Shown: in pieces, positions 6,910-63,193 of the stretch
How positions within the stretch are numbered: the first letter of the stretch is position 1
Layout: the number at the start of each line of letters is the position of its first letter
Translations under genes and position numbers: made by a program
The notes under the pieces: model-generated
The model's database searches: none
Told to the model about the DNA's origin: nothing
Seen by the model: the letters and a program-made list of their open reading frames with translations, nothing else
Assembly (NCBI RefSeq): GCF_031877795.1
Contig: NC_133933.1
Span: 22,100,029 to 22,164,028, forward strand
Reading direction: 5' to 3'
Length of the DNA stretch: 64,000 bases
DNA from: Strix aluco
Lineage: Eukaryota; Chordata; Aves; Strigiformes; Strigidae

Positions 6910-6996
6910 ATAACAGACTGATGCTGCAAGCTTTTGGCCACCGAGTGCGTTTCCTCAGCGGCCAGGCTCTGCTGGATGTCACAGAACATCTCTCAG
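6910..6996 (+). CDS. TOGARAM2: TOGARAM2 penultimate exon
   Basis: Internal exon of TOG array regulator of axonemal microtubules 2, a TOG-domain protein whose paralogue TOGARAM1 binds tubulin and shapes ciliary microtubules. The acceptor is CTCTTTCAG before 6910 and the donor CAG|GTATTG follows 6996. The open phase reads NRLMLQAFGHRVRFLSGQAL and onward. It lines up with the part of the TOGARAM1 C-terminal TOG domain that contains LLLQPFCTKAQFLNGKAK, including the QxF and FL.G positions. Length is 87 nt, entering with two bases of a split codon and leaving with one. That phase fits the next exon at 9278 exactly. The paralogue match fixes TOGARAM family membership, and the adjacent PCARE makes TOGARAM2 rather than TOGARAM1 the best assignment. 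Confidence 0.88.
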
Positions 6997-9277
6997 GTAT
7001 TGCCTGCTTCAGCTAATCTCCACTTCTAAATGAAGAAGTCTTCAGAGGGAACATTTAGAGGGAAAGCCTCTGAATAGACGGTGCAGTAGCTCATCAAACA
7101 CTGGAAGGTTCTGAGCTTGTCTCTCCTGTGAGATACACGTAATAGGTGTATTTGGCAGGGGTTTGCCTGGCTGCTGCAGAGGTGTGCAGCATGTGAGATG
7201 AGGACAGCACTCGGGCTCCGGCGCTGAGCTCTCACTGGGGCATCTCAGCAGCTGCCTCCAGGAAAAAGAGGGGCTAAAAATACCCTGGCTGGCTCCTCTC
7301 TTTGAAGGACAGTACCGTAAATGTCGTGGACCTGGAAGAGGTCCCTTTTCTAACGTGAACAACCATCCTTCAGAAAAAATCGTGGTCACTGGTATTTCTG
7401 ACAATCAGTTTGGTTTGTCATCACGGGATTCTCATTTTTCTGTCGGAAATTTTTGACGCTGAGTTCTGCAGAGCCTGGGGGTCATAGCGTAGGTGAAAAC
7501 TCAACACACATGTTACAGGCAAGGATTTTGCGCAAGGCAGAATTTGGGGACGGAGGGGCAGAAGCCCAACCCATTTAGCCCAACCCACTGAGGCTCCCTG
7601 CCCGTGTTGCAGATATGACATTGGACTCCGAGCATTTCAGGGTGTGCAAACAGTCTATTTCTATATCAGTGGTGCCCGACACACTACAAAGGCAGCTGAT
7701 AATTGATTTAGAATAGTAGCTTGCTATGTCAGCAATAGCCAGGGAATGGAAAAAATGATAATCTCAATATATACTAGAAAAGACTATTTATACCCTTGCT
7801 TCAGTTAGGGCTGAATCCACTGCTAATTATGCCAGCATCTTTTAATCCAAGGTTTAATACACTTTGCTTCTTCATTATGAATCTCAAAAGGGCATGCTTA
7901 GCCATAGCGAATGTAGAAGGGCCTTTAAAGATCATTTGCATAAAGTAAATCTCCATAAACATCGAATTAGTTTTACAGTTATTTTAATCTTTTCTCAAAT
8001 AAAGCATCTGAACATAAATTGGGACTGCTTTAGAGGGAGCAGATGTTCTCTCTACGATTTACTGGAAACGGAGAGCTCTTTCTCTTCTGAAGCTCCATAG
8101 TGACCGCTGTGTTTAATAGCATTTAAACTCAAATTAACTCCCATTTTAAAATAGGTACCATAACCCTTCTTAGCAGAATTGTTTTTAGGTACTTTCAGGA
8201 GCTGTTTAAATGTTGATGACTTATGCTAGATTAACAGCATAGAGAAAATTGAGGTCCTTCCACTACAGAATAAGAAATGGTTACTTTTTAACAGAAACAC
8301 ATTAACATTTCCACTGAAAAGAAAATAAGAACTCTGTCTCCAGACCATTTCAGATTTTGATCTCTCAGCAAAATCTGCCGTGCAAGGAGCCTATTGGTCA
8401 TAAATTTTTGTTTGTATTCAATATAGTTCAGTTCAGAAAATGAGCTGAGAGCAGACTTCAGAGAGAATGAGAGGGAACGCTTGGGTTTTGTTAGATTTCA
8501 GCTCCCTGCGTAAGATTTTTTTCTATCTCTATATCCCTATTTCAGGGAACATTGTGAGGGTAAATGCCATTAAAATTGCGAGATGTCCAAATGCCATGGC
8601 AATGGGGTCTGGGTAATTATCTAAGACATCCTGACGTTTGAAACAGCTGTTCATTAGAAGCCACCAAGTATGAAGGGAAAAAACCTCAGGTTAGACCATT
8701 GTGCCAAAGACATCAGTTAGTCACTGATGTTTCTAATAAAACTGTCAAGTGGCACACATCTTTTGTGGGCTGGAGTTCTGAAGTGTGTTATTACACTGCC
8801 GTTTACTGTGTGCCACTGAGCAAAGGGAACTGCCAGATTAGACTGTTGGCATTTTTCATCAAAGGTCACCAAAAAAGTAATCATCCTTTTTATTAGAAAT
8901 CTTTCAATTACCTCTCTAAGCTGCATTTCAGAATCTTCAGCAGCTGGTTTAGACAACTTCTGAATGGAAGGAAACAGCGATTTGACATTTTTGTCATTTG
9001 TAATGCAGAAGTGGATAGTGAAATGATTTACAAAATGTGTGTGATTCACTTTACTAAGTCTGTCACGGATGCAAAGCCTCTGATTTGGAAAAATTAAAGG
9101 TCCTCAGAGGTTGGTTGTTCTGTTCAGTGAATGATCAGCCACTGTTGCCTGTTTCTGGATCATCAGGCTCTTTGTGCTTGCTGATATTAGCCAGAAAAGG
9201 CTTCCAAGAGCCAAAACTAAAGGTAGGTTCTTGTTTGCATTAAGGTTGTTAAGAAGCTTGTCTCTCTCACTTGGCAG
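6997..9277 (+). other. last intron of TOGARAM2
   Basis: A 2.3-kb interval between the two 3' exons, bounded by GT (6997) and AG (9276-9277). No mobile element, RNA gene or additional exon is evident. The open frames in it, on either strand, have no supporting splice sites or similarity. Confidence 0.75.
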
Positions 9278-9522
9278 TGCTCGTGGCATCTCTTTATCCC
9301 TCGAAACCCCAAGCTGTCAAGCACTACGTCCTGCCCATACTCTGGTTCTTCCTGGGAAACAGAGCCCTGCCTGTCGGAAGCAGCAATGTCAGGGCTGTGG
9401 TTGCCAAGCTTGCAAAGACCCTCAACCAAGTGATGGGCTTGAGCCTGAGGGACCACGCCGCCACTCAGCCTCAGCATGTGGCGAAGAACCTCTGGAACGT
9501 TTTGGGCCTGAATATCGGGTGA
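9278..9522 (+). CDS. TOGARAM2: TOGARAM2 terminal coding exon
   Basis: Encodes the C-terminal end of the last TOG domain. The acceptor is CTCTCACTTGGCAG, and the frame continues from the previous exon through a split GTG codon to a TGA at 9520-9522. The segment YVLPILWFFLGNRALP and the following NVRAVVAKLAKTLNQVMG and QPQHVAKNLWNVL match, in order and spacing, the conserved end of TOGARAM1 (VLWHLLGN, NIRTATAKLSKAL, QPPHIKKSLEEL). The protein ends a few residues after this helix, as in the paralogue. In human the next gene is PCARE on the opposite strand, as here. The matching 5' exons of the gene lie 43 kb further downstream in this window, which is the wrong side (see findings). Confidence 0.92.
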
Positions 9523-9660
9523 AGACTTGGTGTGCTCCAGGGAGCCGATGGAGAGATGTGGAATGGCTGGAAATTGCCTATTAGTGATAAAATAGCAACG
9601 CATGTACTTTATTCTACTGTATAAATGGCTGTGTGTCCTTTAATAAAGTGGCATTAACGC
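9523..9660 (+). other. TOGARAM2: TOGARAM2 3' UTR with AATAAA
   Basis: A short AT-rich stretch follows the stop codon, with an AATAAA at 9642-9647. It could be the host polyadenylation signal, giving a 3' UTR of about 140 nt. It could also belong to a truncated LTR, because a TATA-like TATAAATGG (near 9620) and the retroviral primer site (9709) are close by. The boundary between host and retrovirus in 9600-9708 could not be resolved by eye. Confidence 0.5.
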
Positions 9661-9708
9661 GATCACATTGGTTGTATAAATTGTGTCCGGGACTTCCGCA
9701 TCAGCAAG

Positions 9709-9726
9709 TGGTGCCCGAACAGGGAC
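9709..9726 (+). other. primer binding site, tRNA-Lys type
   Basis: TGGTGCCCGAACAGGGAC differs at one position from the complement of the tRNA-Lys3 3' end (TGGCGCCCGAACAGGGAC). This is where reverse transcription of the retroviral RNA starts, and it fixes the end of the 5' LTR to just upstream. Confidence 0.85.
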
Positions 9727-9870
9727 CCTCCTGTCGGTGCTCGCCCGAGCAAGAGAAGACGGCTCAGAGGGGGCAGAAGCAGCCGTAGCAGGCGCTGCCC
9801 CGGCGCCTGGGAAGACGCACGCGCAATCGTCGGGAATCTCGCCCTGATCAGGTGAGCGGCTGGGGAGGAG

Positions 9871-10359
9871 ATGGGGTCCAGGCTAAGCAGAGAAGAAGTG
9901 GCAGTGGTTAAGCTCCTCCAACATATACTCTCTAAGAGAGGATCATCTTATGATGAGGGAAACCTGAGGAAGTTGCTGTCATGGGCTCGGCAGCATGGAT
10001 TAATCCCCTCAGTGAGAGCAGCCTTTGAATTAGCTACTTGGGAAAAGATCGGCGCGGCACTGTGGGACGACATTAGCTCAGGCTCTAAAGACAGTGGGAA
10101 ATTCTCCACCCTGTGGAGATTGATCCTAGAGACTCTGAAGGAACTGAAAGCAGAACGGCAGACCCCCGCCTCTGCTTTCGCTGCCTTGTCAGCAGAGGCA
10201 GAAAGCGCTGGCGCTCAGGATTCCACTACTGCTGTGACGTTCGCGGGATCCCTGTTCCCCAAGGCGGCTCCTAAAAGGAGGGACGGGGACGCTTCACGCG
10301 CAGCACCCGTGCGGCAGGAAAGTCAAGAGCAAAAAGTAAACAGATTCACCACCGCTTGA
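9871..10359 (+). pseudogene. ERV-2 gag, matrix (p10-like) region
   Basis: Begins with ATG at 9871, MG-initial as expected for a myristoylated retroviral matrix protein. The first roughly 100 residues have the helical W-rich pattern of the betaretroviral p10/matrix family (WARQHG, WEKIGAALWDD, LWRLILETLKEL). The frame stops at TGA 10357-10359. A proline-rich segment continues in other frames (10360-10560), as expected of the domain between matrix and capsid, so the gag frame is broken. The 5' leader directly upstream contains the splice-donor-like site. Confidence 0.78.
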
Positions 10360-10559
10360 GTCCCCCCTTTCAAGCTCAAGGGAACAGTCACCGGAGCACC
10401 CCACCCCACTCCCGCCACCTCCTGCCCGACCCCGCGCGCGCCGCCGCCTCACCAGAGGAAGGCGCCGACCCACCCCTGCCCCCGTCCTCGCCTCCGTCAC
10501 CCTGATTGGTGCATGAACAATCTTGTTATGGTTCACAAGATCCACACTTGTGAGAACTA

Positions 10560-11107
10560 ACAAGAAAACTAGAGCAACTTGAAATGCAAATGAAGGAATC
10601 AGCTCAGCCTATTCCTACGGCACCGCCGCCACCCCCTCTTCCTATTAACACCTTTTTTCATGACACTGGTGGGGAGGGTGGTTGGTCAGGGGGAAACAGT
10701 GGCAATCGGGCCGCTGGCTCAAATGGGAGGGGGGACACTGGGAGGCGCAGGTGGTAATGGTAATCCAGCACACTGATGGCAGGGAGTTATTCGGGATGCA
10801 ATAATTGAGGGGCAGTTTAACGAGCTTGGACCAATGGTGTTTCCGGTAATAGTAACACCACACGGCAATGAGTGGGAGGCCTGAGATTGGAAAATGATTA
10901 AGGAGGCAAAATTAGCAGTAGCACAATATGGGTTAAAATCACCATATACTAATTCAGTCATTCAGCATATTTTTACAGCAAATTTATTAACTCCGTATGA
11001 TGTGTGCATGATTATACAAACCTTATTAACAGCTTCCCAACAATTGCAATTTTTTCAATGTTGGCAAGTGGCCTGCGAGGCTGCGGCAGCCACACCCCAT
11101 CGCAAGG
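10560..11107 (+). pseudogene. ERV-2 gag, capsid N-terminal fragment
   Basis: The open piece 10894-11107 reads through capsid motifs (AVAQYGLKSPYTN, then LTPYDV, then QLQFFQCWQ). These align with capsid of the neighbouring ERV-3 (NYGINSPEV, LCPYDI, QLQVFQSTW). An in-frame stop lies just upstream at about 10882, and the preceding bases encode a typical capsid start (VFPVIVTP). The sequence ends where CR1 begins at 11111. It is a relic. Confidence 0.72.
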
Positions 11108-11195
11108 AGATCACAGAATCACAGAGTCATCTAGATTGGAAGGGACCTTGAAGATCATCTAGTCCAACCGTTAACCAAGCACTGACAGATCCCAG

Positions 11196-13981
11196 CTACA
11201 CCATATCCCTAAGTGCTATGTCAACCCGACTCTTGAACACCTCCAGGGATGGGGACCTGGGCAGCCCATTCCAACGCCTAACCACCCGTTCTGTAAAGAA
11301 ATGCTTCCTAATATCCAGTCTAAACCTTCCCTGGTGCAACTTGAGGCCATTACCTCTTGTTCTATCGCTTATTACTTGGTTAAAGAGACTCATCCCCAGC
11401 TCTCTGCAACCTCCTTTCAGGTAGTTGTAGAGGGCGATGAGGTCTCCCCTCAGCCTCCTCTTCTCCAGACTAAACAACCCCAGTTCCCTCAGCCGCTCCT
11501 CGTACGACATGTGCTCCAGACCCTGCACCAGCTTCGTTGCCCTTCTCTGGACACGCTCGAGTAATTCAATGTCCTTTTTGTAGTGAGGGGCCCAAAACTG
11601 AACACAGTCATCGAGGTGCAGCCTCACCAGTGCCGAGTACAGGGGTAAGATCCCTTCCCTGTCCCTGCTGGCCACGCTATTTCTGACACAAGCCAGGATG
11701 CCATTGGCCTTCTTGGCCACCTGGGCACACTGCTGGCTCATGTTCAGCCGGCTGTCAATCAACACCCCCAGGTCCCTCTCTGACTGGCAGCTCTCCAGCC
11801 ACTCCTCCCCAAGCCTGTAGCACTGCTGGGGGTTGTTGTGGCCCAAGTGCAGCACCCGGCATTTGGCCTTATTAAAACTCATCCAGTTGGCCTCAGCCCA
11901 TCGCTCCAGCCTGTCCAGATCTCTCTGCAGAGCCTCCCTACCCTCGAGCCAATCAACACTCCCACCCAACTTGGTGTCATCTGCAAACTTACTGAGGGTG
12001 CACTCGATCCCCTCATCTAGATCATCAATAAAGATGTTAAACAGGAGTGGCCCCAAAACCGAGCCCTGGGGGACACCACTCGTGACCGGCCGCCAGCTGG
12101 ATTTAACTCCGTTCACCACAACTCTTTGGGCCCGGCCATCCAGCCAGTTTTTTACCCAGCAAAGCGTGTGCCCATCCAAGCCTCGAGCAGCCAGTTTCAC
12201 CAGGAGAATGCTGTGGGAAACGGTGTCAAAGGCCTTACTGAAGTTGAGGTAAACTACATCCACAGCCTTTCCCTCATCCAATAAGCAGGTCACCCTGTCG
12301 TAAAAGGAGATCAGGTTTGTCAAGCAGGACCTGACTTTCATAAACCCATGCTGACTGGGCCTGATCATCTGGCTGTCCCACATGTGTTGTGTGATGGTAC
12401 TCTGGATGAGCTGCTCCATCAGCTTCTCAGGCACCGACGTCAAGCTGACAGGCCTGTAATTTCCTGGATCATCCTTCCGACCCTTCTTATATATGGGCGT
12501 CACATTGGCCAGTTTCCAATCTGTCGGGACCTCCCCGGTCAGCCAGGACTGCTGGTAAATGATGGAAAGCGGCTTGGTGAGCACCCCAGCCAGCTCCTTC
12601 AGCACCCTCGGGTGTATCCCATCAGGTCCCATAGACTTGTGTGTGTCTATGTGATGCAGTAGGTCACTGGCTGTCTCCTGGATTGTGGGGGGGTCGTTCT
12701 CCCAGTCTCTGTCTTCTGGCTGAGGAGGCTGGATTCCCTCAGTACAACTAGTCTTGCTATTAAAGACTGAGGCAAAGAAGGCATTAAGCACCTCAGCCTT
12801 TTCCTTGTCACTTGTTAACATGTTTCCACCTGTGTCTAGCAGGGGATGGATACTCTCCCTGGTCTTTCTTTTGCTGCTCATATACTTACAGAAACATTTC
12901 TTGTTGTCCTTGATTGCTGAAGCCAGGGTGATTTCCAGCTGGGCTTTAGACCTCCTGATTTCTGCCCTGCATAGCCTCACAGCATCTTTGTAATCACTGT
13001 GAGTGGCTAGTCCCTTCTTCCAAAGGAGGTAAACTTTCCTTTTCTCCCTGAGTTCCAGCCAAAGCTCCCTGTTCAGCCAGGGTGGTCTTCTCTGTCGCCG
13101 GTTTCTCTTACAGCACCTGGGGACTGCCTGTTCCTGAGCCATTAACACTTCCTTCTTAAAGAGTGCCCAGCCTTCCTGGACCCCTATACCCTTCAGGATC
13201 GTCTCCCAAGGTATCCTTTCAAGCAGGTGCCTAAACAAGACAAAGTCAGCCCTTTGGAAGTCCAGGATGTCAGTTCTGCTTAGCCCTCTCCTGGCCTCTC
13301 TAACAATAGAGAACTCTATTATATTTCATGATCGCTGTGCCCTAGTCGTCCTCCGACCGCCACATCATCCACCAGTCCTTCTCTGTTCACAAGGAGGAGA
13401 TCCAGTAGGGCACCTTCTCTGGTTGGTTCTCTCACCAGTTGCGTCAGGAAGTTGTCTCCCACACATTCCAGGAATCTCCGGGACTGGTCCCGCTCTGCTG
13501 TGTTGTATTTCCAGCAGATGTCTGGGAAGTTAAAGTCTCCCACAAGAACAAGGGCAAGCAATCGTTAGATTTCTCCTAAGTGCCTACAGAATATTCCATC
13601 CACCTCTCTGTCCTGGGTGGGTGGCCTATAGTAGATTCCTACTACAACATCAGCCCTGTTGGCCTTCCCCCTGATTCTAACGCAAAGACACTTTACCCTG
13701 TCTTCGCTACACTTGTGCTCAAAGCAATCATAACAGTCCCTAACATACAGCGCCACCCCACCACCTCTCCTACCTTGTCTGTCCCTCCTAAAGAGCTTGT
13801 AGCCGTCAACAGGTGCACTCCAGTCATGGGAGACATCCCACCATGTTTCTGTAATAGCCACAACATGATATTTTTCCTGTTTCATCATGGCTTCAAGCTC
13901 CTCCTGTTTGTTACCCATGCTGTGTGAATTGGTATACATGCACTTCAGATGGGCTGATGTTTTGTCCCCTTCCCCCTTCAA
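11196..13981 (-). pseudogene. CR1 ORF2: endonuclease and reverse transcriptase, two lesions
   Basis: This is the polyprotein that nicks DNA and copies the element's RNA at the nick. The N-terminal apurinic-type endonuclease runs from 13981 down to about 13317, with ITETWWD, GGGVALYVR, IYYRPP, GDFNFPD and the terminal SDHE catalytic motif. It has an in-frame TAA at 13565-13567 and a small frameshift near 13317. The reverse transcriptase is open from about 13316 to 11196. It shows [14 protein letters not shown] and [13 protein letters not shown], the catalytic FADD about 420 residues into the long open frame, and the C-terminal arginine-rich VVRRWNGLP region. ORF2 overlaps the end of ORF1, as usual in CR1. 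One or two point events would have silenced an otherwise complete protein. Confidence 0.94.
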
Positions 13982-13983
13982 AT

Positions 13984-16608: not shown

Positions 16609-17172
16609 CTTGCTTGGTTAAGCATGGGTTCGCTGCCAGATGTTACGGGAGCTGGAAGACGAAACTGGACCCCTGGTCGGCGGTCAGAGAAACTTCTCTT
16701 CACAAATGGCTGAGGACTGGTCGCACTCAGGGACAGCTTTCTGATCCGGTCTCCAGGCTGCCGGAAAAGCAGACTACTCTTTTGGGAAAGCGATGAAGCT
16801 TCAGGCTGGCTGGTCAGCTCCACAGTGGGTTTGGTGGGTACCAGAGGAGGTCTGGCTTCGAATAAGGAAGAGGTGGCCAGGCAAAATATTGAACGGGCGT
16901 TGCTGCCCCTCTTGGAGGATGAGAGCTGGTGCTCGTCCCCAGCATCCAGCCCAGCTCTTGGCCCCTTGTAAGAGCGGGATGGGGAGGTTGGTGGGGAGGG
17001 GGTGGTGGGGAATGGAGGGGGGCTTGCATCTCGGCGGTAGGCTGGGGAGCCCAGCAGCTGGTGTGGCGTTGGCGAGCTTTGCTTGTGCCCTGTGGGAGGG
17101 CTGAGTGGTTTTCGCTGGGGTGGTGGAAAGGGCAGCTTCTTCTGCAAGGGTGGGCTGGGAACCCTGGGGCTA
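16609..17172 (-). pseudogene. PCARE: PCARE exon 1, C-terminal part, after an internal deletion
   Basis: Photoreceptor cilium actin regulator (C2orf71) recruits actin regulators to the base of the photoreceptor outer segment; human mutations cause retinitis pigmentosa. The proline-rich stretch (SPRVPSPPLQ, then RKPLSPPTGHKQSSP) and the conserved SIFCLATSSLFEARPPL and FVKRSFSDRRPG segments match the C-terminal third of human PCARE in order. The reading ends at a proper donor, CAAG|GTAAGAA (exon end 16609). The frame differs from that of the upstream part, and about 450 residues of the human protein's middle are absent at the joint. The final short coding exon was not found. This piece is not usable as a gene. 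Confidence 0.85.
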
Positions 17173-18310
17173 GAGGCACGCCTTCAGTTTGCTAGAGGAC
17201 CTAGATGTAATTTGCTCATCCTGCAAGTAAGGTGCTGTTCTTGTTTTCCGAGTCTCTGGTTTGTTATCTGTATCCTTCTTTCTGTAAAACATTTCCAGCC
17301 TTTTGCTTAGCTCTTTTTATGTTCTCTGAAGCTCTAGGAGGGTCGGGTCCTCTGCCTGGCTTCTGAGGGACTCCTCTGACCTGGACCGTCGTTGTTTCCC
17401 GAAGGTTTTCTGGCTGCCCGTCGCTGTACTGGGCCTTGTTGTTAGGACTGCTCTTCCGCTCTCATCCTCTATCCATTCTTTACGTCCAGATTTAGCTGGG
17501 ACAAACTTGATTTTTTCACTGATGGCATCTTTCATCTTCAGAATAATTTCCTCTGTCTCTGCATTCTCAGTCCTCTTGATGGACTGCCTTTGTGTGTTAT
17601 CAGTGACTGCAGGCGAAGACAGGGGCCTCCTCGGCAGAGTATCCTTCCCCATTTCTGATAAACTTGTGTTGTCATCATCCTCCCCCAGGGTACTCCCTTC
17701 ATTGTCATCATCATCATCATCAGAAGGATAACCTCTTGATTCACAGAGTTTGAAGTGTTCACCTTCCTGAGTGGAGTCAGACTGGAACGAATTACAGGAA
17801 TGGCTTTTGCTCAAGCTTGCATGTTGGGGCATGGTAGAAATGCCTTCTGGTGCTCCACCCTGACAAGAAGTTGCTTCCTTACTCCGCATGGATGAATAAA
17901 ATATATCATTAGAATTCCTTTCAACTGCACAGTCACGGGATGCGGCTGTCCCTGGTGACACTGCCCCATCATGCATGTGCCCCACTGTTCTGGTGTGCTT
18001 TTGGGACAGATGTCCATATGCAGAGGAATCACATGCTTGTCCTCCATGCTGGCTGAGAGCACTGAACTCTTTGAGGGATTCATTGTCCACACCAATGCCA
18101 CTGTCCTCAGAATAGAGAGTCCTGTCATCACCGTGGGACTGAGAGGATCCCACCATCGAGGCTTCCAGCAGCCTTACTGTCCGTAGCAGGCGCTCATCAA
18201 AGCTTTGCTTTGCTTTCAGTTTTCCTTCCAAGCTGCTTGCAGCAGACTGCAGGTAGCTGCATGTTTCCTTCAGGGTGTCGGATGTGAGGAAGGCCAGCGT
18301 CCCACTCAGT
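17173..18310 (-). pseudogene. PCARE: PCARE exon 1, middle part, broken by ERV-3 and a stop
   Basis: The open frame enters directly at the LTR border (18310), reading LSGTLAFLTS, the equivalent of human PCARE LNGTVASLTG. It continues through SFDERLLRTVRLLE, YSEDSGIGVDNES, an acidic run, and EEIILKMKDAISEKIKFVP to AEDPTLLELQRT, all matching the human order. TAA at 17317-17319 then stops it. Homology continues in the same frame past the stop (KELSKRLEMFY, then TSRSSSKLKA) to a second stop, TAG at 17170-17172. The first roughly 330 residues expected upstream are absent, and no PCARE sequence is seen beyond the other end of the retrovirus. The gene copy is dead. Confidence 0.92.
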
Positions 18311-18659
18311 TGTCACGGTAGAGACGGACACGACAACAATAACTGGTGCAAGCAATGTCTCATAATTTTATTATTCACATTCTTCTTATATATCCTCATT
18401 ACAATACCGTGTGCTCTTTTTATGGGTCATAAAGTTGTTCCTCAACATTACTATTGGCTAGTTCTTTTTCTTCCTTGTGCTTTGTGTAGACGTGCAGAAC
18501 TGCAGCTTCTTCGTGCTGTTTCTCAGCTCACAGTTTCTCTTATTTTGCTTGTTCAGCTCTTCTCGGGACTTTCCGGCCCCTCATGGGTACACTGGAATTT
18601 CGTCAAGGCTAAATTCTTCTTCAGTCAGGCTGGTGGCAGACCCACTGCCTCCCCCGACA
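18311..18659 (-). repeat. ERV-3 3' LTR (349 bp)
   Basis: Read on the minus strand, the LTR opens with TGTCGGGGG right after the polypurine tract and closes with CTACCGTGACA at 18311. The ends form an imperfect inverted repeat. It contains a TATA-like GGATATATAAG and an AATAAA in the expected order. Beyond its terminal CA the sequence is PCARE coding sequence, so the insertion point is exact on this side. Confidence 0.9.
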
Positions 18660-18672
18660 ACTCCCCCTTTTT
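18660..18672 (-). other. polypurine tract of ERV-3
   Basis: AAAAAGGGGGAGT on the minus strand is directly followed by the LTR start. It is the plus-strand primer site of the retrovirus. Confidence 0.85.
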
Positions 18673-19173
18673 GTATTTGTGCTAGAAATATTGCGTGAGC
18701 AGTCTTCTGCAGGGCCCTTTGCAGAAGACTGACAAGACAGGGCAACATTCAAAGCACGGTTACAATTATCAAGATCGTTACCCCCACAGTTTTGACCAGG
18801 GATATCAACCATCCAGAAAGTCCCCAACTTTAAACATCCTTGTTAGCCAACCTGGAGCATCATCTTCTGTTAAACGCTTGACATCATCTTTTAGCTGCTG
18901 TATGCTTTTAAAAATAGATTCTGAGTGGTCAGACAAATTCATGCAACACATTCCACCAAAATCTTCACACCCATGTCCTTGTGCTAAAAGCAAAAAGTCA
19001 ATAGCAGCTCTATTCTGTAAGGTGGCATGCCTAACACTATCAACATCAGTTAAAAGACCACTAAGGGCTAATGAGGTAGCATCAGTTTGTTTGCTAAGCC
19101 AACACCCTAAATTTGTTTGTTTTTTCAATGCAGAGTTACCCAGACATTCTGTTTGGGTTGTGGAACTACCCAT
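18673..19173 (-). pseudogene. ERV-3 env: transmembrane subunit only, no surface subunit
   Basis: This is the fusion subunit of an alpharetrovirus-type Env. The open part 19173-18805 contains LQNRAAIDFLL, then a cysteine and a CC pair separated by six residues (CEDFGGMCC), then NLSDHSES and a heptad stretch. The frame shifts near 18805, and a hydrophobic membrane span (WLISLVKTVGVTILIIVTVL) follows in another frame with a further stop. Directly upstream, the end of integrase overlaps it, leaving no room for the roughly 300-residue surface subunit. That subunit has been deleted or was never present. Confidence 0.85.
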
Positions 19174-19918
19174 CCTTCACGCCGAACACACCGAGCAGGA
19201 ACCCAGCGAGGGCCGGCATCTGTAGAGACACAAGCATAAGCCCCGCCCCAGGTTAACAGCTCACATGGTCCACGCCACTGGCCAGTAATTAGATCTCTAA
19301 CATGCACTTTGATGCCCTTTTGCAAATCCAGTTTTGAAAAAAGAGAAATGCTGAAAAAGAGGAGGCAGAGAGGAATTATCCCCATAATGGAGAAAGTTGA
19401 GAACATAAACTGCTTTACCTAGACGTGTCTGGGGGGGTTCCCCAATCATTCCCCCTTTTTGTTTTTGAAGCTGCTGCTTCAGTGTACCATGCGCACGTTC
19501 AACAGTTGCTTGCCCTGTGGGGGAATGAGGAATGCCTGTAACATGAGTAACACCCTACATATCAAAAGATGTCTGAACTTTCTTCGAAACATATGCAGGG
19601 CCATTATCTGTTTTGATTTGGTATGGTATCCCAAGCATAGAAAAAGCCTTTTGGAAATGTCGAATTACATCTTTTCTTGTTTCTCCATTATGTGCTGTTG
19701 CTACTAAGGTATGAGAATAAGTTTCAATAGAAACATGAACATATTTTTGCTGGCCAAACTCCTGCACATGAGTAACATCAGTTTGCCAAATCTGCAAGGC
19801 TCATATACCTCTGGGATTAGTACCAAAATACACTGGTGTGTGAGTCCCTTGGCAATCAGGGCAGGCAGCCACAATGGAACGAGCTTCAGTGTGAGACAAG
19901 CCGAACTGCTGTCGTAAA
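19125..19918 (-). pseudogene. ERV-3 integrase, several stops
   Basis: Integrase inserts the viral DNA. Visible are the zinc-binding part (HxxxH at the end of the preceding open frame and CPDC), the first catalytic Asp in QIWQTDVTH, the second in KTDNGPAYVS, and the Glu in GIPHSPTGQATVERAH. After a frameshift, the C-terminal DNA-binding domain (VHVRDLITGQWRGP, then RWVPARCVRR) follows. TGA at 19919-19921 and 19798-19800, TAG near 19553-19555 and the frameshift near 19300-19400 abolish function. Confidence 0.88.
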
Positions 19919-19920
19919 GC

Positions 19921-21798
19921 TCAAAATCCTTGGTGAAAAAATTGATGTGATAATACAGCTTGTTGCTTTATGTTAGGAACAGTACTCAGAGCCATAGCAG
20001 AAACAAGAGCGTCCGCTCTGACATCACCCTCTGTATAAAACCCTGGTAAAGTAGTATGACTACGAATATGCATGACAAAGTAGGGTTCTTCTCGCTGTTG
20101 AATACTCTTGCAGAGTTCCAGGAGTACTTCAAATAACAATTGATTGTCCGACGTAGTTAAAACTACTTTGTCTAGTCGACCAATCAAGTTGGCTACATAT
20201 GCTGAATCAGTTACAATATTTACAGGAGAAGTGAAACTAGAAAAAACAATAGCTACAGTACGTAGCTCTACTACCTGTGGAGAGCCCTTTTGATATACCA
20301 CCTTGTTCTTCCAGTCATGGTTTTCATACCATACTGCTGCTGCTTTACCTGTTTTTCCTGAACCATCTGTAAAAACAGTAAGGCCGTTCACTGGTTCTGG
20401 TTGGCTTAAATTTTTCTGACCAAATGGTACTTCTCGAGTCAATTTCAGCAGCGGGTGTGATGGCAGGTGATATGGTATCTGTCCCTGAAAGCCCGCCATG
20501 GCTGCTTGCAGCTCATAATTATTCACCAGACACCATTCAAAATACCAATTTTGAACAGGTAAAACAATCGTAGCTGGGTCACGCCCTGTTAGTTCTGAAC
20601 ATCGTTTTCTGGCTTTTATGATTACATCAGCAATAAGCTCAAACAGTCCAGGAGCAGTTTTTCGTGGTCGGAATGACAGAAACATCCATTCCAAAATATG
20701 TAATGGGTCATCCCACTCAGGATTCCACTGCACTAAAGCACCAAATGGCACAGTTTTGTCAATTAGTACAAAGAGTTGTACCAATTGAGACAGATCTATT
20801 TGAGAAACAAATTTCTCGTGTATAGATTGTTCCACCATGTGAATTACATTTAATGCTTCCTTATTTAATATTCTGGGTTCTGTTGGATCATTGGAATTTT
20901 TTAATAATTCCAGTAATGGTTGCAATTGCGAATTGGTCAGTCCGAGATAGGGCCTGATCCAATTCAAGGATCCCATTAATTTCTGTACATCGTTAAGGGT
21001 TTTAACTTCAAGGTTAAATTTCACAGGTTGAGGCATTACCTGCTTACTTGTAACTGTCATTCCTAGACATTTCCAGGGTTCCACCTTTTGCACCTTTTCA
21101 GGGGCAACAACCAATCCATATTGTTGTAATGAATCTCTGGCCAAATTCTCCATGTCGTTCAACTGCTCCTTGCTGTTTGATGCTAACAGGATATCATTCA
21201 TGTAATGGTAACAATAGGTAGTAGGGAATTTTTCTCTCACAGGTGACAAAGCCTGGGCTACAAACCACTGACAAATTGTTGGCGAATTTTTCATGCCTTG
21301 TGGCAAAACCTTCCATTGATACCTGTTTGAAGGTTCCTCATGATTTACAGAAGGCACAGAAAATGCAAATTTCTCTTTGTCTTGGGAGGCCAATGGAATA
21401 GTAAAGAAACAGTCTTTTAAATCCATCACAATAATTTCCCAATCCATAGGAATCATGGCAGGTGAGGGTAGGCCTGCTTGTAGGGCTCCCATCGTAGTCA
21501 TGACAGCATTAGTTTGCCATAGGTCATGTAAAAATCACCATTTTCCTGATTTCTTTTTGATTACAAATACTGGGGTATTCCATGGGCTATGAGAAGGTTC
21601 AATATGTCCAGCAGCTAGCTGTTCTGCCACCAATTCTTGCGGGGCTTTTAATTTCTCAACTGTCAGGGGCCACTGATCCACCCACACAGGGTCATTTGTT
21701 AACCCGGTTAATGCAAGTGTGGGTTGTTTAACACCCTGCAACACAGTGGCCCCCGTCAAAAATCCGTGGTAATTCTCACACCCCACTGAGATAAACAA
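19921..21798 (-). pseudogene. ERV-3 reverse transcriptase and RNase H, one stop
   Basis: The polymerase part has the [16 protein letters not shown] entry motif, an in-frame TGA at 21535-21537, then VMDLKDCFFTIPL with the first catalytic Asp, LPQGMKNSP, and YMND where YMDD is the norm. A connection domain and RNase H follow with FTDGSG, VVELRTV and VTDSAYVANL, so all three acidic positions can be seen. The open frame after the TGA is 526 codons. The Asp-to-Asn change in YMND removes a metal-binding residue. Confidence 0.92.
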
Positions 21799-22385
21799 TC
21801 ACGTCCCCACAAAGTTGAAGGTGTTACTGTAACATAAGGTCGCACTGTGGCTCTCTGCCCCTCAGAATTCACAATCATGACTGGAAGAGCAGAGAGCTCA
21901 CAATGAGACATTCCCCCCAACCCCATAATCCCTGTGTCTGCCGCCACTGTGGGCCAATTGATCGGCCAATCAGTACGACAGATAATAGTTACGTCTGCTC
22001 CAGTGTCCAGAAGTCCACGAACTTCAGCAGAGGGAGGATGACTGTCTCGGTTGTAGATGACACATTTCATGGGCGGACGATGCGTCTCAATGGGTTGTGA
22101 CCAAAAAGCCATCGGCGCTCCGGTCGATCCGAAGCTGCCATCCCCACGGAGGTGCTGCTTTGCTTTCAGAACACAACTCAAAAAAGGTACAAGTTGAGCA
22201 ATGCAAGTGCCTTTTGGAATTGTCACAGGTGGATAAGGAGTAGAAATCATAGCACAAATTTGTCCAGTAAAATCAGCATCAGTAATTCCCATAGGCACAA
22301 TTAATCCATTCAAAGTGCTACTAGGTCTTCCAACCAATAGGGCACTTAGACCTCGCCCTAGAGGTCCTTGCGCATCAAGCGGCAC
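21756..22385 (-). pseudogene. ERV-3 dUTPase and aspartic protease
   Basis: The first part has the late dUTPase motifs (LNGLIVPMGITDADFTGQI, then IPKGTCIAQLVPF). This enzyme keeps dUTP low during reverse transcription. The retroviral protease follows with its LLDTGADVT catalytic motif and a C-terminal GRDCLSQWG segment. The arrangement dUTPase then protease, in a frame different from gag and overlapping the start of pol, is that of betaretroviruses. The frame itself is open for 209 codons. Confidence 0.86.
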
Positions 22386-22402
22386 TTTAACAATGTCTTT
22401 TG

Positions 22403-23405
22403 TTAAAAGCGTTCCTGTGTCGGCGGTGGATACATCCCTCCCTGCGGAGCCGGCGGTGGCGGCGGACAGCCGGTCCCAAAGTGCGGTTGAGGAGCCGCTG
22501 CTGAGCAGGGATTTCGTATCCTCGCGCGCCCTCTCGCGCTCTTCTTGCCGTGTCCCCGAAGCGGTTGTCCATTTACATGAAACTTAGACCGGCATTGCTT
22601 TGCAAAATGGCCTAATTTACCGCATTTGTTACAGGTAGTTCCTGTTTGCATTCCATTCCCCTGTTTCGAAGGGGATCTCTTACGTGGACAGGCTGTTTTA
22701 CCATGCCCCTCTTGCCCACATCCATAGCATCTCACTGGTGCTTTGCTTTTCATTGCTGCGGCTAGTGCTGTCATTTTATGTTCTATAGTGCCTACTTTAG
22801 AGCAGGCAGCAGCCATGTCTGATACAGAGGGATCACCCGGCAACGCTTCAATAATTTTCTGACAATCTTCATTAGCATTATCTTTTGCCAATTGTTTACA
22901 TAGCATTTGCCTCAATCCCTCATCCTCTACCTGCTTTTCCAGGGCAGCCGAAATCTTCTCTACGAATTGCAAAAAAGGCTCCCTAGGGCCTTGTCGAATA
23001 GCCACATACTTCTGTTTGGGGGCTGCCAATTCCATCGTCTTTTTCAATGCAGTGAGTCCCACCTGTTGAGACTGTTCCAATATAATAGGGGGCCAAGTGG
23101 CCTGCAGTTGAGGATTACTAAATGGCCCCTCGCCCAACAATGCACCCTCCCCAACGGCTAATCAGGGGTCACCTTGCGGCAATCTCCGATTGTTTTGTGC
23201 TGGGGCTGGGGCCATTTGCCTCCACGTAGATTGAAACACCTGGAGTTGTATAGGTTGAAACAATACTTGTGCCAGATGAGTAATATCATAAGGGCATAAA
23301 AGATCTGTACTAATATTTCTGAATAATTGCATCACCTCAGGAGAATTGATTCCATAATTCTGAGCCTTATTCTGCAAATCTTGTAAAACTTTCCAGCTAA
23401 TTGGA
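22403..23405 (-). pseudogene. ERV-3 gag: capsid and nucleocapsid, 5' truncated
   Basis: Capsid starts near the truncation (HFPISWKVLQDLQ). It includes the major homology region (RQGPREPFLQFVEKISAAL) and ends with two CCHC zinc knuckles (CYGCGQEGHGKTACP and CNKCGKLGHFAKQC) that bind viral RNA. A proline- and glycine-rich tail follows. An in-frame TGA at 23162-23164 interrupts capsid. Matrix and the leader are missing. The sequence stops being gag-like somewhere between 23405 and the WDR43 acceptor at 23426. Confidence 0.9.
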
Positions 23406-23426
23406 AAATGTTTTTTTTTTCCTCAG

Positions 23427-23546
23427 GAAAACTGGGATGACGATGAGGAAAAAGAAGAGCAATCTGATGAACAAGAAATGACTGTTGAAAAGGAAATCAA
23501 TGGTGATTCTGATTTGGAACCAGAAAATGAAAGTGAAGAAGAATAG
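23427..23546 (+). CDS. WDR43: WDR43 terminal coding exon
   Basis: C-terminus of WD repeat protein 43 (yeast Utp5 homologue), a nucleolar protein needed for transcription and early processing of ribosomal RNA. A strong acceptor (ten T, then CCTCAG) precedes an in-frame 40-codon stretch ending in TAG at 23544-23546. The acidic tail ENWDDDEEKEEQSDEQEM and the ending INGDSDLEPENESEEE match the end of human WDR43 (NWDEDEEE, then LNGDSDLDPENESEEE). All upstream exons are missing, and ERV-3 gag lies where the last intron should be. Confidence 0.95.
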   Translation, partial: ENWDDDEEKEEQSDEQEMTVEKEINGDSDLEPENESEEE

Positions 23547-52868: not shown

Positions 52869-53004
52869 GCTCTCGATGCTGCAGAGGAACCCACCAGCAG
52901 CTGTATCAGGCCCAGCGACCAGCAGCACATCGAGCAGACTCTCCTCTGCAGAGAGCCCAATGCCCCCCCCCCCACCATGGCAACGCAAGATGATTTTGCA
53001 GCAG
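52869..53004 (+). CDS. TOGARAM2: TOGARAM2 first coding exon (ATG at 52977)
   Basis: The acceptor TTTTTCCATGTAG precedes 52869 and the donor GCAG|GTAAAG follows 53004. The frame is open across the exon. An ATG at 52977 lies in an ideal initiation context (CCACCATGG), so the protein probably starts MATQDDFAA, with 52869-52976 untranslated. The upstream part is also open, so a start in an earlier exon cannot be excluded. A run of eleven or more C just before the ATG is prone to sequencing error, but it would be non-coding in this model. The exon ends with one base of a split codon, which fits the exon at 55425. Confidence 0.65.
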
Positions 53005-55384: not shown

Positions 55385-55424
55385 ATTGCAAATTTGAGTA
55401 ATTTGTACTGTCCTTCTTTTAAAG

Positions 55425-55559
55425 CTAAGTACCACACCCCGGTTGCTGTCTACTGTGGGAGCATTCCCAAATTCAAACCCAGATACATAGCTCTGCGAGG
55501 CGGAAGCATTGATTCAAACTTGCAGTTTTGTGGCAGCAAGTGGACCACTGAAGAAGAAG
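55425..55559 (+). CDS. TOGARAM2: TOGARAM2 exon 2
   Basis: Acceptor CCTTCTTTTAAAG, donor GAAG|GTGAGG, 135 nt, entering and leaving in phase 1. The frame reads KYHTPVAVYCGSIPKFKPRY and then RGGSIDSNLQFCGSKWTTEE. It joins in frame to the exons on both sides. The sequence itself was not recognised, so the gene name rests on position (directly after WDR43, as in human), direction, and the linker-like character of the joined product. Confidence 0.72.
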
Positions 55560-56281: not shown

Positions 56282-56566
56282 CTTCTTTTCAGTCCATATT
56301 AACAACCGAGATGAAAGAGAAGCCTAATTTATGGGATGGGGAACATCCGTACCCAAGGGCCATTCCTTCCCTGGATGGCTGGATGAAGGCTAGTTTGGAC
56401 ATCCTCAGTACTGGGGATGGTGGTGATCTCTCCCACCATTCTCACCGACCCTTGACCCAGCAACTCCAAGAGAGGGAGGTGAGCAGTGCTGCCCGAAAAA
56501 CTGTTCAGATCAAGGACAAGCTGAAGATGAGGAGGATGTCTGAGGATCTCTTAGCCTCACATAGAG
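56282..56566 (+). CDS. TOGARAM2: TOGARAM2 exon 3
   Basis: Acceptor CTGATCTACAG, donor AGAG|GTAAGG, 285 nt, phase 1 to phase 1. It encodes a hydrophilic segment with KPNLWDGEHPYPRAIPSLDG and the basic patch ARKTVQIKDKLKMRRMSEDL. The composition suits the long disordered N-terminal region that precedes the TOG domains in this family. It is open over its full length with good splice sites. Confidence 0.75.
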
Positions 56567-57017
56567 GTAAGGCGGGAGCCTGCCCACTCTCTTGTGGGAA
56601 GAAGGGTCTTTTCCCAGCCTAGAGAGCTAGCTGCCATTCCCACTGAACAGTTCTCCCCTGCATGTGCCCCCCTGAAATAACCTGCCCTGCTCTCAGTTCC
56701 CTGTGTAGCCCTCCTGTTGCTGTAGGAGTGCATAACTGGGGGGCAGGGAGAGGAGTGGGAGGTTGTGTGTGCAGGTGACATTCAGGGTAAGCACAGGTCC
56801 GTGGGCTCCCTGTTGTCTAACAGGTGTTTCTCTGATGGCTCTGTGGAAGTGGGTAAGTGTTGTCCACTGGCCTGCTTCAAGTGGCTGCCAGCATGAGCAT
56901 GTTTCCCTGTGCAGTTATTTAGAAGTTTCCAGGAAATCTGTCCAATGAAATATCTAGCGGTGAGTGCTTTAGGTTTGCAGTGCTGTTTCTATTACACTTT
57001 GTGTCTCTACTTTGCAG

Positions 57018-57253
57018 GCCTGACTAACGGCAGTGACCCTGGGGGGGTTCCCCTGAAGCCACTAGTTTCCATGTCAGCTTCCCAGAGGTTCCTGGCAACC
57101 TCCAAGCCCCTGCCTCCCATCCAGAACAGCCTTCCTCCCTCTGAGCTCAGCAGTATGAGCAACGGAGAGCAGGAGCATGGGGAAAATGGCACAGGCTGTG
57201 ACGACAGTGATGGGGATAACAAGAAGCTGACGTCGGAGGCAAAAGGAGCTCAA
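57018..57253 (+). CDS. TOGARAM2: TOGARAM2 exon 4
   Basis: Acceptor CTACTTTGCAG, donor TCAA|GTAAGG, 236 nt, phase 1 in, phase 0 out. Serine- and proline-rich product (LATSKPLPPIQNSLPPSELS) ending in an acidic run (CDDSDGDNKKL). No folded domain is evident. It fits its neighbours in phase and belongs to the same low-complexity N-terminal region. Confidence 0.75.
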
Positions 57254-58820: not shown

Positions 58821-58993
58821 GCTTCCCTGCTGCCCTTGTATTGCAACGGTGGGGATAGGAAGAAGTCACTGGGATTGGCTTTGATTCCCCCTATCCCCAA
58901 GACTGCAAAACCATCTGATGAGGCTCCTGGCAGAAGCGCAGTGCCTCCCCCAAGCTCTCCGCACCTGGTTTTCCAAAAGGCCCTGGAAATGAG
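58821..58993 (+). CDS. TOGARAM2: TOGARAM2 exon 5
   Basis: Acceptor TCTATTTCCAG, donor TGAG|GTAAGC, 173 nt, phase 0 in, phase 2 out. It encodes GLALIPPIPKTAKPSDEAPG and PPPSSPHLVFQKALEM. The PPIPK motif resembles the VPPIPR motif in the linker of TOGARAM1, which supports family membership modestly. Confidence 0.75.
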
Positions 58994-60033
58994 GTAAGCC
59001 AAGGTGTCTGCTTCTCCAATATGCCATTCACCTTGCACTTCTTGTCTCATGAGGTTATTTTGCACAGTCAGCTCTCCAATATATTTAGGCAAACTTCTGT
59101 GCATTCACCATTTTGTGTGTCTGTGATGATCCAGCACAATATCAAAACTGACATCATACACTCTAAGAGTGGTGGTGGGGAGGAGGAGGCAAGACTTAAG
59201 AGAACCTTAAAAGCAGGTCCTCTGCTGAACTCTGCTACTGATTCATCCTGTAATCTTTGTGTGCCATTTGGCAACTGTATTGCATAGATCTGAATACAGC
59301 ATCTGGTTTTGTGTGTGATCTTTCTGTACCTGCAAGAGTATGTTAGGGCAAGTATTGGCTGTTGTATAGCTGTCTGCAAATTCAGATGCTGCTTCTGTAA
59401 ATGCCAGTTGTAGCTTCTCTGTGTCTGGGTCTTCACTGTGAAATGAGAGCCCAGATAAATCTTGGTTTATCTCCAATAAATAAGGAGACATAGAAATATA
59501 GTTCCATGCTTCAGCATGACTTTTAAAATGCAATCTGAATATACTTACCTCCCAGTTGAGTGGGAAAAACCTTTCTTTTTCTTGGGAGAGCAGGGAGGTG
59601 TAATATTATTCTAAGGAGACAGCAGTGCTATTACCATGTATAGCAAGATACTGTCGTCAGCTGAAGTCATGACCGGGCAAAGTTAGGCTTCTGCAGCAGA
59701 GTAAAGGCAGCCGGCTTAACCTCTCTTGCTGATTCAGAAAGGACGTATGTAACAGTGAGAGCCACGTAGCTCCACAAGGAGAGACAGCAGAATTGGATAG
59801 AATTGGCCCAAACTGAAGAATGACTTCTGTGTTTCAACTAGAGCTTGATGAGCTCTGTGTGACTCCAGCAACCGAAAGTTTAATAACAATTAATCAGCTT
59901 TGCATATTCTTGGGTTTATGAGTTGCAATTCCTCCTTCATCAGGACGACCACGCTAAGAAAGTTTGCCGCCTTTAACGCTACCCCTCCTTCTCTTTCTAT
60001 CTCCTCATATATTCTTTTATTGTTTTTCTTAAG

Positions 60034-60080
60034 GCCAAGATCAGGCAGCAGAATTGAAGAGAAGACCGTTAAATTTCAAG
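60034..60080 (+). CDS. TOGARAM2: TOGARAM2 exon 6 (47 nt)
   Basis: A very short exon between TTTTTCTTAAG and CAAG|GTAGGT. It restores an AGG codon with the previous exon, then reads PRSGSRIEEKTVKFQ and leaves in phase 1. It is accepted because both neighbouring exons need exactly this phase change. Confidence 0.65.
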
Positions 60081-62009
60081 GTAGGTACAGGGCATGGCTG
60101 TCCTAAAATGACCATAGGAGTCCTGACCCATGGGTGGCACTGTGAAAGTTTGGTTGAATACCATCTTGTCACTTTTTTCAATTCCTTCATATGCTCAGAT
60201 GGCTCCCCCAGAACCCAGTCACTGGGAAATGTGCTCTGGTGATTCAGTGAAAATGACTCCAGCATGGGGTTATGAATGGCAGGAGCTGGAGCGGGTACCT
60301 TGAGGCCCTGGAAATGCACAGCAGGAAAAGAAAACGTCCCTGCACAGTCTCTAATGTCACAAAGATTAGAGAGAAACAAGGCATTTCACATGAAATGAGA
60401 AATGTTCCCACTCCTTCCTCCTACACTTGAAGGAGAAAACCTTCCCTTGGTGCAGTTTCTGAACCAAGTTCTTTGAGATATGAGGTAGATTAATCAACAT
60501 TGCCTGTTTTTGCTCTGGGAGAAATAGTGAAACCTTGCGTGATAGGAAGTCCTTGTGAATTTTCCATTTACAGAGAAAGAGACTTAAAAAAGGATCCAGC
60601 CTATGCAGGATCTGAGCTTTCCGTCCTCTTAAAGCACAAGCCTAAATTAAATGCTGAGTAATGAACTGAGGTTTCCTTTGTGCAACTCATCTGCCTCAAA
60701 CCACATCTGCTAGTTTTATGATTACCAATCTCTTCCCCTACTCTGTCTGCATATGTCAGTATTGCAAACTGAGGCTGCGGTAGGAGATGCCTACTGGCTT
60801 CTCTCCCCTCCCCGCCTCACATTATCACTAGCGATAAGAGTTCTGCAAGGCAAAATGCAGTGTCTGGTGGATCTGTGTCAGCCAGTACTTGTAAGCTGAA
60901 AACCTCAGTGACACCGTTGCTGTTCCTTTGTCATCTGTGGGTTTGTAGCAATAGGAAAGATGAGAATTTAACAAATAATTTTGCTGATGTGAAAAAAGGG
61001 ATAAGATCCACTGGTCCCTGAGCTCAGTGTTAGTTCTGCCAAATACTGGGCATGCCCCATAGGAATGATTCCTTTATTGCTGATGTGCAGCTAGGAAGCT
61101 GAGTACAACTAGGGAGAATTATTGCTGAGTAAGTAAGGTGACATTTTTGCTGGATACATTCTGGACTAGAAATGAGCTATATCATGAAACCATTTTTCTC
61201 TCTTCTTATTGACCTGACCATTCTGCAGGGATAAAACCTCCTGATTTAAGAAAGTTATTCCTTTTTTACTGCTTGGCTATCACATGATTTTATCATCTGT
61301 GAAGCCATGTAAGGAATGATTAGTTCTCTGAGTTTTAACAGCAGTGTTGGAAAGTATTTCAGAATGAGCTGCATTGTGCTATTCCCATTAAGAAAATCAG
61401 CCTTTAGTCAGGCTGCCTGGAAGGTGGGCTGATCTGCTACATTTTAGAATGAAACTCCTTGGGGAAAACAAATTCGCTAGCTTCAAGAACACAATTCTGG
61501 TTTTGGTAACACTCTAGCAATCCTAAGCTTTTCTTTAAATGCCCTCTAAAATATTCCAGCAAAGAAGAGGGAATGTTGATTCTTCCTCTCTACAAAGGCA
61601 TATAGCTATTAAAAAACAGGGGTAACTGGGAAAATGAGGATGTTTACTAAAATCAAAATGGACAGGAACAGATAAGAACCCTTTTGTCAAGAGCAATCTC
61701 CATCTTTTTGCTCTTCTCTGTCAAGCAAAGCTGCTCACCGGAAGCCAAGGGCTGAGGCCTGTATCATGCAGTAGTTCTGAGTCTGATGGCCAACAAAGTA
61801 ATGTCATTTCTGCTGCCAGTGCACCATGGTAGTACCCCATCTCTTTGGAGAGGTTACATGTACCTTGCTGTTCTCACACACAATCTATATCCATGTCTTA
61901 TCAGAGCTCCAGACTCTGGAACCCATCCTGCCTGTTCTCCAGCATCGTGTTGATGGTGGCCTGAAGTCGTCTGGACATTTATGTGAAACTGTGTTGTCCC
62001 CGTTAACAG

Positions 62010-62098
62010 GCCCCGCACTCAGGCAGATCAAGGAGGTGGATCATCTCATGAACCCTTCCCTTCTGAGTGATGACGACTTGAAGTACAGCAATGGAAGG
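62010..62098 (+). CDS. TOGARAM2: TOGARAM2 exon 7
   Basis: Acceptor CCCCGTTAACAG, donor GAAGG|GTAAGG, 89 nt, phase 1 in, phase 0 out. Product PALRQIKEVDHLMNPSLLSD followed by DDLKYSNGR, a polar segment likely to form a short helix. No stop in the used frame. Confidence 0.72.
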
Positions 62099-63054
62099 GT
62101 AAGGGCTAAGGACAGGGGTGAGCAGCCTTCCTCTTCAGTGACTGCTCAGTGCTTAGCACAAAATGTCACTGAAAATCAGTATCTTCCCCTCTTGGGGAGC
62201 AGCTTCTCTTGGGAATACATTTGACAGCTACAGAGCAATTGCTTGAGTATTTTCACTGGTGCAGAAGTCACTGGTTGGGACATGGTGGTGAAGTTACATG
62301 AGAAGTATTCTTTATGTACGAAGGCCAATTTAGAGCAGATCTGAACGGCAGAGCAAGTTACACATCAGTGAACATGTGCAAAGTGCATGCTCGGAAGCAC
62401 CGAAGCAAAGATTATAATGTTGAGTGTAATAAGCAAGGCTGCAAACTAAAATGGAAGAGCTTGCTTTTTCTTGGTTACCTTCTTGCTGTATCTCACAGCT
62501 CTCTCATTCTCATTTTTGTATTCATTAAGACCAATGTTTCTCCAACTTGTTTTCACATGACTCCGTTTTTGGACTCATGTTCTCAGAGAGCGTTTGAGTC
62601 CGTGAGAAGCAGCTGCAATTACTGTCTGTGAGTGTTAAGAAACAGCAAATTACCTCTCACTGCTGGTTATTGCAGATGGTTTTTATTCCCCGGCCCTGGC
62701 CTGTAGGAACTGAACTGCCTGTTCACTGGTAACGTGAGCTCTTCATATGTCTGGAAGCACTCCTCTGACGCTCTGGGTTCAAGCAGGGCTTCCTGACATA
62801 GATTGAGAAACAGTACCTTGGACCAGTGGAAGGTTATGGCAATGAAGTGTTATACATCACTGGGTGTAACTGTATGCCAAGGTGAGGACAGGAGAAATTC
62901 TTCTGAAACTATGGGGATGTATATGGAGCTGCATTAAAGACTATGACACTCTACCACCGTGTTCCTGATGAGGTGTTTTATATGGTTCGTGTATCAATCT
63001 TTATGCTCCATGATGTATTTTCATTGCAACTAGATCCATGTTACCTTGTCCAAG

Positions 63055-63193
63055 TCAGTTCAAAAGAAAATAGACGAGAAGCGAATGAGACAGATGGAGA
63101 TTTTGCGTAGAGAGAGGGAGAAAGAGAGAGAAAAGGAGAAGTCCTTGCAGCTTCCTACACAGAGTGTTGACCCTGGGGATACAGCCAAAGAAA
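63055..63193 (+). CDS. TOGARAM2: TOGARAM2 exon 8
   Basis: Acceptor ACCTTGTCCAAG, donor GAAA|GTAAGT, 139 nt, phase 0 in, phase 1 out. It encodes a highly charged helix (KKIDEKRMRQMEILRRERE, then KEREKEKSLQLP), consistent with a coiled-coil or single helix in the linker before the TOG array. An alternative acceptor four bases later would open on an early stop and is excluded. Further exons, including all TOG domains of this copy, should lie beyond the window. Confidence 0.74.

Follow-up and report, generated by a model that had tools for sequence, protein, structure and literature searches.

Why should the last exons of a gene stand upstream of its first ones? The question is raised by a 64,000-nucleotide stretch of the Strix aluco genome (the window; C3:22100029-22164028 in the species' own 1.41-Gb assembly, C3 being contig NC_133933.1), which carries, from left to right, the 3' end of TOGARAM2, a truncated PCARE pseudogene, a proviral fragment, an orphan last exon of WDR43 and the 5' half of TOGARAM2. 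We take mouse Fam179a to be TOGARAM2 and mouse BC027072 to be PCARE. The mouse order, as given in PMC3443222, is Wdr43, Fam179a, BC027072, Clip4, Alk, and when the exon, PCARE and WDR43 positions of the window are set beside it, the owl order proves to be circularly shifted. An earlier reading of the letters alone (the original prediction) had offered a tandem-duplication junction or a misjoin of scaffolds. Whole-genome searches favour the duplication over the misjoin: with a probability of about 0.88, the window spans the junction of a head-to-tail duplication that took in TOGARAM2 together with the end of WDR43 and the greater part of PCARE, and was followed by a secondary amplification.

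A genome search and an exon map show four TOGARAM2 loci in a tandem row, all on one strand; three stand to the left of the junction and one to its right. The 3' piece of the gene has seven matches in the genome (three full ones, one pair split by an insertion and two 81-base pieces), with the 3' exons matched at C3 21976959, 22042443, 22106928 and 22184009/22192163, and exons 3-4 have four matches, in order, at all four places; for repeats, such counts are lower bounds. On a map of C3 21.90-22.214 Mb, exon 2 lies at 21941931, 22005612, 22071087 and 22155453, each time followed by both last exons. The spacing of exon 2 is 63.7, 65.5 and 84.4 kb, and the distance from its start to the end of the last exon is 37.7 to 39.5 kb across the four copies. 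Exon map, self-alignment and genome matches thus agree on adjacent copies in one orientation, as expected of a tandem duplication.

The features on which the original prediction was built (the TOGARAM2 3' exons, the PCARE remnant, the WDR43 exon and the eight 5' exons) are present where it had placed them, as judged by splice borders and frames, Pfam and a PDB match. The eight exons of copy 4 (52977-63193) have AG/GT borders throughout and join into 384 open codons. They belong with the 3' exons on the left to one type of gene, as had been supposed, since the 5' exons precede both 3' exons on the same strand in every copy. All located exons are open in the four copies; exons 1, 2, 4, 6 and 8 are identical in all of them, and exon 7 and the last exon vary by a few bases. 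One complete TOGARAM2 had been expected on each side of the junction. On both sides 5' and 3' parts do follow each other in order, but the left side has three copies instead of one, completeness being judged here from the eight first, two last and two TOG-type middle exons that were located. A crude splice scan of 2400-6905 for further TOGARAM2 exons gave four candidates, none TOG-like by eye.

The name TOGARAM2 itself is putative and was given on the strength of gene order together with a TOG-type match of low score. The gene sits between WDR43 and PCARE on the strand of WDR43, which is the position of TOGARAM2, and four of its exons, joined, matched weakly in PDB the TOG domain of CLASP2 (3woz, E 0.0013) and CKAP5 (E 0.051). 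In Pfam the same four exons touched ten HEAT-like families, none above the cut-off; three joined exons had no match in PDB, and the last two exons alone gave no domain or structure match. An AlphaFold2 model of the last exon, made without an alignment, reached a mean predicted local distance difference test score of 59.7, too poor for a structure search.

The junction links the distal end of one block to the proximal end of the next, running from PCARE and a provirus into the last intron of WDR43. The space between PCARE and WDR43, from 18311 to about 23410, is filled by a proviral fragment that the original prediction had not mentioned. Eight separate open reading frame pieces of this fragment were compared with Pfam: six were retroviral, one had no match and one matched, weakly, only an unrelated family. 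The domains found are RVT_1, thumb and RNase H, a protease with dUTPase, the integrase core and a TLV_coat-type env piece, while gag is represented by the p24 N-terminal domain in two pieces, with the p24 C-terminal domain and a zinc knuckle. The provirus is mixed in character, its protease piece with dUTPase standing alongside the TLV_coat-type env piece. The outer edge of its long terminal repeat (LTR; 18311-18659, TG...CA) coincides exactly with the point at which similarity to the open PCARE runs out (18310/18311), and this is the mark of an integration. On the PCARE side, then, the host sequence stops at an LTR terminus and not at the duplication breakpoint, which lies at 23411-23420. There, at its other end, the provirus breaks off within gag, next to T10-CCTCAG and the WDR43 exon, and because the 96-bp last intron of the left WDR43 ends in T7-CCTCAG, the breakpoint falls in the T-tract.

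In the orphan WDR43 exon both acceptor and frame are kept. Residues 4-39 of the query align with the C-terminus of human WDR43 (PDB 7mq8, residues 641-677 of 677) with an E value of 0.031, weak when taken alone. Against the genome, the last-exon block gave three matches, namely the window itself and a second copy split by an insertion (C3 21815551-21815931, 99%; 21818189-21819095, 98%), 308 kb to the left. There the last exon stands directly behind a penultimate exon and the 96-bp intron (C3 21.8154-21.8159 Mb). Upstream WDR43 exons had been predicted to the left of the window, and of these the penultimate one was seen.

The PCARE remnant was recognised by Pfam family PF15449 'Retinal' in three open pieces (profile positions 292-620, 622-675 and 1067-1251 of 1292; E values 1.3e-102, 1.2e-08 and 1.9e-43). 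The four PCARE matches in the genome comprise the window pseudogene, in two pieces, and a two-exon gene to the right of the window, with its first exon at C3 22211986-22215771 and a further exon at 22207672-22207812. The first exon of the right gene is open for 1269 codons from an upstream stop, the only TAA counted being at the splice donor. Outside the junction, therefore, PCARE with an open first exon stands on the right and the last two exons of WDR43 stand on the left. Compared with the open copy (C3 22212001-22215771), the pseudogene has a nonsense codon at 624, a frameshifting deletion of 1190 bp at codon 671 and a 3-base insertion. This decay is found in the truncated PCARE alone, as is to be expected for a copy without a start. 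The 29 substitutions in 1708 compared bases are 8 synonymous, 19 nonsynonymous and 2 nonsense; one of the latter, at codon 294, was dropped because the last two compared bases belong to the LTR, and without this codon 19 of 27 amino-acid-level changes are nonsynonymous.

The order of events can be read from changes that the TOGARAM2 copies share. Copies 1-3 have in common a provirus with CCTTCA on either side (on the left, the first two LTR bases were not seen), for which copy 4 is the empty site; in copy 3 the entire insertion covers C3 22093338-22101799. The same three copies have lost 521 bases, and with them the acceptor of exon 3 and its first 216 bases, leaving its last 69; exon 3 has 95 codons and phase 1 on both sides, so its skipping would keep the frame. 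Their exon 5 is 335 instead of 173 bases long, an 81-base unit being present three times, which adds 162 bases in frame. Over 32.1 kb, copies 1-3 also stand together against copy 4 at 102 substitutions. In a TOG-type exon of these copies the longest exon model meets three stops in each of the three, and a base is missing upstream of a second acceptor from which all three stay open; depending on the acceptor used, the exon may thus be frameshifted. Copy 4 has, for its part, a private insertion of 6.7 kb in its last intron (C3:22185411-22192167), edged by a short repeat. Copies 2 and 3 differ by 0.23%, copy 1 differs from them by 0.48-0.50% and copy 4 from the others by 0.53-0.65%. Because of these shared changes and divergences, the primary duplication would have set copy 4 apart from the common ancestor of the other three. 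The spacers between copies 1 and 2 (C3:21988858-22001267) and between 2 and 3 (22054335-22066742) are mosaics of partial TOGARAM2 intron, 3' end and upstream repeats, and an LTR-like insertion specific to copy 3 contains tandem repeats of about 45 bases at 2110-2310.

We propose a head-to-tail duplication of a block that had one end in the last intron of WDR43 and the other in the first exon of PCARE, with TOGARAM2 between them. In the left block WDR43 would have kept its last exon, while PCARE was truncated and decayed; the right block would begin with the orphan WDR43 exon and end in the PCARE with the open first exon. A provirus would have integrated in the left-block PCARE at codon 294, and either the exchange or a later deletion would then have brought its gag region up against the T-tract in the last intron of WDR43. 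We infer that the integration into PCARE preceded the exchange, in which case a provirus-bearing chromosome would have recombined with a provirus-free one, as the open PCARE carries no provirus there. The joint itself was probably made by end-joining or by microhomology in the T-tract. Later, the left TOGARAM2, with its second provirus, exon-3 deletion and exon-5 triplication, would have multiplied into three copies spaced about 64-65 kb apart. Only tentatively, and with more doubt than belief, do we go further and suggest that the exchange between provirus-bearing and provirus-free chromosomes fixed the four-TOGARAM2 locus, and that copies 1-3 form a young paralog family, homogenised by conversion, with a new form of the protein, its N-terminal half changed by an unusable exon 3 and a 27-residue segment present three times with the frame kept.

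Several observations weigh against the duplication. The tree of the copies is not clean, with 25 sites grouping copies 2 and 4 against 1 and 3, and 8 grouping 3 and 4 against 1 and 2; gene conversion is the likely reason. The two LTRs of the provirus in copies 1-3 differ by 1.7-2.2% (11/577, 13/580 and 10/580), more than TOGARAM2 differs between the left and right blocks, which contradicts a strict clock if that provirus postdates the duplication. Conversion would explain the excess, as would an exchange in which one chromosome already bore the provirus, and the homoplasious sites point in the same direction. Immediately to the left of copy 1 (21.90-21.9376 Mb) there is neither WDR43 nor sequence like that of the right block, apart from one 160-base match, and the left block is not contiguous in the sequence examined, which stops at 21.83 Mb and resumes at 21.89 Mb, so either insertions or a rearrangement would have reshaped its left end. 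The TOGARAM2 copies are only 0.23-0.65% apart, a divergence within the range of alleles at a single locus, so that divergence alone is compatible with two haplotypes. An assembler may then have laid two haplotypes end to end, one with three TOGARAM2 and the PCARE broken by the provirus, the other with a single TOGARAM2 and the open PCARE. The 0.53-0.65% between left and right TOGARAM2 fits this, an open PCARE without provirus is what another haplotype would show, and bird assemblies are known to contain false duplications (PMC9516828). We nevertheless hold it improbable. No N occurs in the window or in the sequence pieces L001-L032 and L034, so the assembly gap characteristic of false duplications is missing; the joint has a short T-tract in common and no overlap on which an assembler would join; and the flanks diverge more than TOGARAM2, with 18/2559 differences, and 23/1139 plus 3 gaps, in the PCARE region and 98-99% identity in the WDR43 block. 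The threefold TOGARAM2 array would, moreover, still have to lie on one haplotype.

A misjoin had been the first candidate, and it is made unlikely by the four-copy match, the self-alignment and the genome matches of PCARE and WDR43. The unequal copy number, the shared and private insertions and the decay confined to the truncated PCARE speak against a chimeric as well as a haplotype join; a chimeric join is therefore unlikely, as judged from the assembly sequence. The copied block (the 3' part of TOGARAM2 and PCARE) might instead have been inserted in the last intron of a sole WDR43 still spliced across it, in keeping with the preserved acceptor and frame of the orphan exon and with a search of C3 21.89-22.214 Mb in which no upstream WDR43 exon was seen. 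This we give almost no credence, as three TOGARAM2 5' ends precede the window, and the second last exon with its penultimate exon contradicts an insertion into the only WDR43. The window order taken alone would also suit an extrachromosomal circle of the block, re-inserted so as to shift the order; one re-inserted at the home locus would look alike. Both blocks, however, stand in their native neighbourhood and share a strand, flanked by WDR43 to the left and PCARE to the right, and a plain tandem duplication needs fewer steps, which leaves the circle a very slim chance.

The proposed head-to-tail duplication belongs to a known kind of event, unusually legible here and of moderate interest. Tandem segmental duplication through ectopic recombination or end joining is a textbook class, with which our locus agrees in gene order and strand, in the high identity of the copies, in the genes cut short at the joint and in further unequal amplification; it differs in the proviral fragment at the joint and in the restriction of the threefold amplification to the left copy. 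Provirus-associated rearrangement is likewise a known class. As in it, an LTR terminus lies exactly at the host edge and the provirus is cut by the rearrangement, but only one proviral end is involved, and no second related provirus was found in the 300 bases read on the WDR43 side. With the false duplications described in PMC9516828 our case shares near-identical neighbouring copies in a vertebrate assembly, and it differs from them by the absence of a gap, the shared and private insertions, the decayed pseudogene and the unequal copy number. The signature of a duplication joint (an orphan last exon, a truncated decaying gene and open partners outside) is readable from sequence, shared and private insertions order the steps, and an odd arrangement of genes in raw sequence does not have to mean an assembly error. 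If all four copies are expressed, one vertebrate would recently have come to carry a TOG-domain gene at four times the dose, and the fate of paralogs whose N-terminal half has changed could be followed in it. In the literature we found nothing naming TOGARAM2 together with WDR43, TOGARAM2 with tandem duplication, or a PCARE pseudogene with birds, though FAM179A and WDR43 do occur together; the main text of PMC10387091, on the songbird germline chromosome, contains none of the words TOGARAM2, WDR43 and tandem.

Table 1. Features of the locus (window positions, unless given in Mb of C3)
Feature	Position	Strand	Remarks
Provirus 3' end inside TOGARAM2 copy 3	1..1771 (3' LTR ~1191-1771)	+	homologous segments of copies 1/2 98.7%/99.3%
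LTR-like insertion, copy 3 only	1776..2445		copies 1 and 2 uninterrupted across the site
TOGARAM2 copy 3, penultimate exon	6910..6996	+	open frame, AG/GT borders; four genome copies
TOGARAM2 copy 3, last coding exon with stop	9278..9522	+	open in all four copies
PCARE pseudogene	16609..18310	-	PF15449; cut at codon 294; lacks internal 1190-bp stretch
Proviral fragment	18311..23410	-	LTR, env remnant, integrase, RNase H/reverse transcriptase, protease with dUTPase, gag cut in p24; broken frames
Duplication breakpoint	23411..23420		T-tract shared with left WDR43 last intron: T10 here, T7 there, then CCTCAG
Orphan WDR43 last coding exon	23427..23546 (stop included)	+	PDB 7mq8 match; second genome copy
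TOGARAM2 copy 4, first coding exon	52977..53004	+	begins at ATG; identical with flanks in all four copies
TOGARAM2 copy 4, exon 2	55425..55559	+	exon map, copy comparison
TOGARAM2 copy 4, exon 3	56282..56566	+	95 codons, phase 1/1
TOGARAM2 copy 4, exon 4	57018..57253	+	exon map, copy comparison
TOGARAM2 copy 4, exon 5	58821..58993	+	173 bases
TOGARAM2 copy 4, exon 6	60034..60080	+	copy comparison
TOGARAM2 copy 4, exon 7	62010..62098	+	exon map, copy comparison
TOGARAM2 copy 4, exon 8	63034..63193	+	exon map, copy comparison
TOGARAM2 copy 1	C3 21.94-21.98 Mb		left of junction
TOGARAM2 copy 2	C3 22.005-22.045 Mb		left of junction
TOGARAM2 copy 3	C3 22.071-22.1096 Mb		left of junction, ends inside window
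TOGARAM2 copy 4	C3 22.155-22.193 Mb		right of junction, begins inside window

A search of Rfam at the gathering cut-off gave no match. Just 3' of the TOGARAM2 end, at about 9600-11110, the 5' part of another provirus was noticed by eye (a stretch resembling a primer-binding site and the start of gag), cut by a CR1-like long interspersed nuclear element at about 11115-14630; both names are presumptive. Two further stretches, at about 30620-31560 and 53900-54500, appeared by eye to be LTR-like or rich in simple repeats. To the left of copy 1, at C3:21912042-21913124 (piece L009), there is an open frame of 361 codons whose start looks, again by eye, like a RING finger.

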